Shown here piece after piece: positions 9,802-12,637 of a stretch of DNA of 64,000 bases. Position 1 is the first letter of the stretch. Each line of letters starts with the position of its first letter. Both the position numbers and the translations under genes were made by a program. The notes below the pieces were generated by a model. It saw nothing but the letters and a program-made list of their open reading frames with translations. It was not told the origin of the DNA and ran no database searches. Where the stretch lies: contig BCKL01000004.1 of assembly GCA_001600635.1 (NCBI GenBank), positions 1,016,904 through 1,080,903 on the forward strand. Reading direction: 5' to 3'. The DNA is from Leucosporidium creatinivorum. Its lineage: Eukaryota > Basidiomycota > Microbotryomycetes > Leucosporidiales > Leucosporidiaceae.

Positions 9802-12637
<2,836 letters not shown>

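Follow-up and report, generated by a model that had tools for sequence, protein, structure and literature searches.

Introduction

Tiny internal exons have been described in several fungal genes and in at least one plant gene, and the passages of the published accounts cited here provide the closest comparisons for the locus that we analyse. In the basidiomycete Phanerochaete chrysosporium, P450 genes contain microexons coding for 2-10 amino acids, the shortest exon being 6 bp long (PMC1184071). CYP621A of Fusarium goes further, with an exon of a single nucleotide; the authors report it from 20 orthologs and, for two species, support it with reads (PMC12940212). The Arabidopsis gene APC11 likewise has a single-nucleotide exon, which was tested in vivo and for which the authors suggested intron definition, with the flanking introns being removed sequentially (PMC4674806). 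Stwintrons, in which one intron lies inside the splice signal of another (PMC12403724), are a related arrangement.

The window analysed herein is a 64,000-nucleotide stretch of contig BCKL01000004.1 of Leucosporidium creatinivorum (assembly GCA_001600635.1), and it contains a MET3-type ATP sulfurylase gene with a predicted internal exon of seven nucleotides. As in the P450 genes of P. chrysosporium, small introns flank a tiny internal exon in a basidiomycete gene; the P450s, however, form multigene families according to the same account (PMC1184071), whereas MET3 is a single-locus metabolic gene and its 7-nt exon splits a codon. The likeness to CYP621A lies in the reasoning, as in both genes a tiny exon rebuilds a conserved motif and the same homology argument applies, although the Fusarium exon measures 1 nt rather than 7 and is supported by reads (PMC12940212), while that of MET3 is supported by homology. 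APC11 shares with MET3 the possession of a tiny exon but is a plant gene with an exon of 1 nt, and Xlr2 of Trichoderma, also a fungal microexon gene, encodes an alternatively spliced transcription factor in the text cited (PMC11121469). A literature search for a microexon in ATP sulfurylase gave no match, most subscription journals lying outside its coverage, and neither a 7-nt exon nor a micro-exon in MET3 or sulfate adenylyltransferase was among the matches listed. With exons as short as 6 and 1 nt already on record from fungi in the accounts above, the MET3 exon is a further well-supported case. Judged from the genomic sequence, we consider it highly probable that the seven bases form a true microexon, constitutively spliced into the transcript of the one ATP sulfurylase gene detected in this intron-dense fungus.

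Results

A predicted 7-nt exon in the ATP sulfurylase gene

The gene was modelled by hand (Table 1). Along its protein, the Pfam domains PUA_2 (residues 4-165), ATP-sulfurylase (174-388) and APS_kinase (396-553) all score above the cut-off, which is the domain order of fungal MET3 with its C-terminal APS-kinase-like domain. Residues 1-576 align with residues 1-570 of PDB chain 1i2d_A, which we take to be Penicillium ATP sulfurylase, with 397 identities. Compared in this way, at the protein level, the two belong to the same enzyme family, are of similar length and share the segment HPVVGLTKPGD, which is also identical in 1g8f, as is a second tested segment of 10 residues in both chains. A whole-genome Pfam search, in which the best candidates only were scored, returned three ATP-sulfurylase exon matches, all of them inside this gene, and when viral contigs were scanned for a further MET3 copy the pattern matched two stretches, neither of which was confirmed.

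Table 1. Features of the MET3 locus (window positions) and other small exons predicted in the surveyed sequence.
Feature	Position	Strand	Length (nt)	Details
MET3-type ATP sulfurylase gene	9802..12637	+		15 coding exons, 576 aa; hand model, single open frame
Exon 1, coding part	9802..9804	+		lone ATG, then donor GTGAGC directly and a 139-nt intron; hand model
Exon 5	10700..10860	+	161	terminates in ...HPVVGL, phase 0 intron next; hand model and PDB alignment
Intron 5	10861..10917	+	57	donor GTGAGT, branch-like CTGAT at 10896-10900, acceptor TTGCAG
Exon 6, microexon ACCAAGC	10918..10924	+	7	codons for T and K, and first base of P
Intron 6	10925..10989	+	65	donor GTGAGC, branch-like CTGAC at 10962-10966, acceptor CACAG
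Exon 7	10990..11015	+	26	remainder of P, then GDVDAFTR; hand model and PDB alignment
Exon 9	11345..11364	+	20	small internal exon, end of Y and GPYDAQ; hand model
PRP8-like gene, exon GCAAC	L018:9358-9362 (G000:C1:339358-339362)	+	5	predicted; between two 59-nt introns
6-Phosphogluconate dehydrogenase gene, start	L016:3857-4280 (G000:C1:313857-314280)	+		predicted coding exons of 11, 13, 21 and 24 nt
C2-domain gene, exon	L008:7687-7698 (G000:C1:237687-237698)	+	12	predicted internal; short predicted protein
Exon of a gene without homology support	L015:58-62	+	5	predicted internal
Exon of a gene without homology support	L007:1671-1683	-	13	predicted internal

The initial annotation had placed ACCAAGC between two introns with GTGAG donors, CTGA(C/T) branch sites and CAG acceptors, and its sequence, coordinates and signals are as claimed. 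Being internal, no longer than 30 nt and flanked by GT...AG spliceosomal introns, the heptanucleotide has the attributes of a microexon. Ranked against 388 predicted introns of other genes, the donor of intron 5 falls at the 64th percentile and its acceptor and branch site together at the 78th, and the corresponding values for intron 6 are the 40th and the 99.5th. Together with its flanks, ACCAAGC occurs once in the genome when up to two mismatches are allowed, and the pattern AGACNAARCGTRAG (AG-ACNAARC-GTRAG) has one occurrence in the window and none in 100 shuffles. The predicted join of exons 5, 6 and 7 should read ...GTTGGATTG-ACCAAGC-CCGGAGAT....

Three further features of the gene concern small units or alternative sites. 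The initiator ATG makes up the whole of the exon 1 coding sequence (region 9802-9943), and the N-terminus that follows from this model aligns to residue 1 of 1i2d. The sequence DFYGPYDAQ across the region of the small exon 9 is gap-free in a PDB alignment. Finally, a second AG is present at 10922-10923, 6 nt past the acceptor of intron 5; were it used, exon 6 would shrink to 1 nt and the enzyme, still in frame, would lose TK.

A single splicing path yields the full conserved protein

Parses of the region were enumerated under the following constraints: donors GT or GC, acceptors AG, a minimum intron length of 40 nt, no more than three introns, sites between 10830 and 11078 and a fixed exon 8. 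Among the 2,560 parses obtained, 436 preserve an open frame, and exactly one, running through the 7-nt exon, gives the full conserved protein with GLTKPGD. TKPGD as such is contained in 12 of the 436, and the remaining 11 of these 12 differ elsewhere. With donors restricted to GT there are 680 parses, 139 of them open in frame and eight with TKPGD, and the same path is again unique in giving the full protein. It had been proposed that only inclusion of the seven bases restores GLTKPGD and keeps the frame; this stands for the full conserved protein but is too strong with regard to the frame, because 435 other parses are open and in frame. By alignment score, the 7-nt parse reaches 2080, the runner-up 2062 and the third 2058.

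The residues encoded by the exon are conserved. GLTKPGD is gap-free in five PDB alignments, including those to 1i2d and to 1j70, 1g8f and 1jec, the last three of which we assume to be yeast chains. Among the best 80 of 583 confirmed bacterial relatives from a GTDB scan, all have both T and P and 79 have K, the remaining one having R. An exact copy of the search pattern KPGDVDAF is absent from all 80, and the T, K and P columns were therefore not selected by that pattern.

Departures from the two-intron path end the protein early, at 330 aa if the exon is skipped, 242 aa if intron 5 is kept and 238 aa if intron 6 is kept, and mis-spliced transcripts of this kind would thus presumably be unproductive. 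We also considered a stwintron. In such an arrangement no bases are retained between the internal and external introns; here, dropping the 7 nt causes a frameshift with a stop at 330 aa, and each intron has intact signals of its own, and this reading was rejected.

Gene prediction recovers the exon

A home-made gene finder was used that combines codon, donor, acceptor, branch and length scores, imposes no minimum exon length and passes over donors with scores of -2 and below. Training used the window and C1:200001-400000, with the hand model of MET3 as a seed, and was followed by three rounds of retraining without the MET3 locus, on 65 genes and 388 introns; given this seeding, its result is not fully independent of MET3. 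The retrained finder predicts exon 10918-10924 exactly. We regard this as support for the 7-nt exon, not as proof, because in the same gene the finder picks another start, at 9911 instead of the ATG of the hand model, and an exon 2/3 boundary that differs from the homology-based one.

When exons shorter than 8 nt were barred, the score dropped from 243.9 to 224.6, at a cost of 19.4 nats, and the finder returned a wrong model that is nevertheless in frame, in which exon 5 ends at 10816 and 51 nt are lost, corresponding to 17 residues inside the ATP-sulfurylase domain. That automated annotation misses exons of this size, as had been suggested, is illustrated by this single finder, and we offer it as an illustration only. 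In 400 dinucleotide shuffles of 10869-10961, HPVVGLTKPGD was restored in none and the real score was reached in none (maximum 236.6); the finder nonetheless predicted an exon no longer than 15 nt in 19 of them, 15 of these having one of 10 nt or less. Prediction of a microexon is therefore weak evidence on its own, and the MET3 exon has homology in addition.

Recognition of the exon and alternative readings

For a constitutively included exon of this size, each flanking intron would be recognised as its own unit, that is, by intron definition, and introns 5 and 6 would be taken out one after another, in the manner suggested for Arabidopsis APC11 (PMC4674806), because the 3' end of intron 5 and the 5' end of intron 6 lie too close together for simultaneous occupation by two spliceosomes. 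Intron definition, which the initial annotation took to be required for exons this small, is plausible here and would fit the short introns of this genome, with a predicted median of 65 nt. The exon itself probably originated when two introns were inserted seven bases apart into a longer ancestral exon.

The alternative that fares best, though we think it improbable, is a regulated microexon whose inclusion would follow sulfur supply, with skipping reducing the output of ATP sulfurylase in the manner of a switch. The frameshift and stop at 330 aa on skipping agree with such a role, and the cited text on Trichoderma Xlr2 offers a switch-like precedent (PMC11121469), but the splice signals prefer inclusion, with sums (frame ignored) of 17.0 for the two introns and 7.1 for skipping. 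Skipping is further disfavoured because it would require a 129-nt intron against the predicted median, a length that lies within the range of the genome, where 36 of 401 predicted introns measure at least 129 nt.

There is very little to recommend the view that no microexon exists and that exon 5 extends by seven bases, to 10867, followed by one 122-nt intron with the donor GTCTCC, such that VST would replace TKP. While this parse leaves the frame open and the length unchanged and is the best-scoring alternative by alignment, its non-consensus donor has a score of -2.84, compared with a median of 6.0, and stands lowest when set against 388 predicted donors; this is partly by construction, as the finder ignores donors at or below -2 and could not have chosen this one. 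It would also leave two good splice sites without use and destroy TKP, which is intact in the five PDB alignments and, among the best 80 of the 583 confirmed bacterial relatives, in 79.

Use of the AG at 10923 as the main acceptor, which would reduce exon 6 to a single C, strikes us as hardly any more credible. It gives an open frame and the third-best parse, and when 10917 is masked the gene finder resorts to it, at a score of 233.5 instead of 243.9, yet the acceptor scores at the 5th percentile and the product would be without two conserved residues. Moreover, the AG nearest downstream of a branch site is the usual acceptor, and that at 10923 is the second. A pseudogene, an assembly error or a frameshifted copy, with signals that resemble an exon by chance, as in the 19 shuffled intervals above, can be set aside with near certainty, given that the other parts of the 576-aa frame are intact, as are the identities to 1i2d, that TKPGD was restored in 0 of 400 shuffles and that this is the sole ATP sulfurylase locus found.

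Tiny exons in other genes of the genome

The survey of exon sizes covered 264 kb of 27.7 Mb (~1%), was made with the same gene finder and was confined to genes scoring above 40, the stricter of two intron penalties being retained. After retraining it comprised 66 genes with 401 introns and 339 internal exons, and a predicted mean of 6.1 introns, compared with the 4-6 introns each that the cited account gives for basidiomycete and zygomycete genes (PMC2246297). Internal exons of 51 nt or less numbered 38, those of 30 nt or less 26, those of 15 nt or less six and those of 10 nt or less three. Before retraining, the two intron penalties had given 8 of 379 and 7 of 338 exons of 15 nt or less, with five and four of 10 nt or less. 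Homology supports four of the six that do not exceed 15 nt and two of the three that do not exceed 10 nt, the latter two being those of MET3 and of a PRP8-like gene. The expectation that exons this small are very rare is thus not borne out in this genome, given that the 264 kb surveyed contain, among 339 predicted internal exons, three no longer than 10 nt, two of them homology-supported. These rates are approximate, because the survey covers ~1% of the genome with a home-made tool that puts the MET3 start and the boundary between exons 2 and 3 in the wrong place and yields a short PRP8 model (2,014 aa, against a human chain of 2,335 residues), and the smallest exons may be undercounted, because the finder is unable, in some phases, to report exons of 1-2 nt that do not complete a split codon.

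PRP8 is a core spliceosome protein. The 5-nt exon of the PRP8-like gene, read as KLW-Q-LNNYR, is gap-free against human PRP8 and is the best of 27 open in-frame parses among 118; the one residue that it codes in whole is Q where the human protein has N, and the support comes from the unbroken frame on either side. In the 6-phosphogluconate dehydrogenase gene, the 13-nt exon is homology-supported and is the best of 60 open in-frame parses among 1,685. This gene begins with four successive small predicted coding exons, which when joined read MSAVADIGLIGLAVMGQNLILNM. Weaker support attaches to the 12-nt exon of the C2-domain gene, which lies inside a Pfam C2 match; the short protein presumably resembles the start of Rsp5-type ligases. 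The two remaining exons, at L015 and L007, are possibly errors of the gene finder, and a scan of the first 397 of 661 aa of one of these two genes detected no Pfam family.

Discussion

The 7-nt exon of MET3 matters mainly as a warning for annotation, because tiny exons occur in other genes of this genome and in other fungi. A minimum exon length in a gene finder leads to a MET3 protein that is plausible and in frame, yet wrong. MET3 is a clean case in this respect, in which homology fixes the exon without RNA, and the survey of ~1% of the genome suggests that such exons recur in conserved genes.

A more ambitious reading would combine the 7-nt exon, the tandem acceptor and the frameshift on skipping into a control point that sets the level of ATP sulfurylase by sulfur supply. 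The exon would then belong to a collection of microexons, none above 13 nt, spread over essential genes throughout the genome, PRP8 among them. We hold this to be very unlikely; if it were true, the capacity for splicing would exert feedback on many pathways. An intron-dense fungus with several microexons may provide a convenient system in which to study how the spliceosome handles introns that lie 5-13 nt apart.
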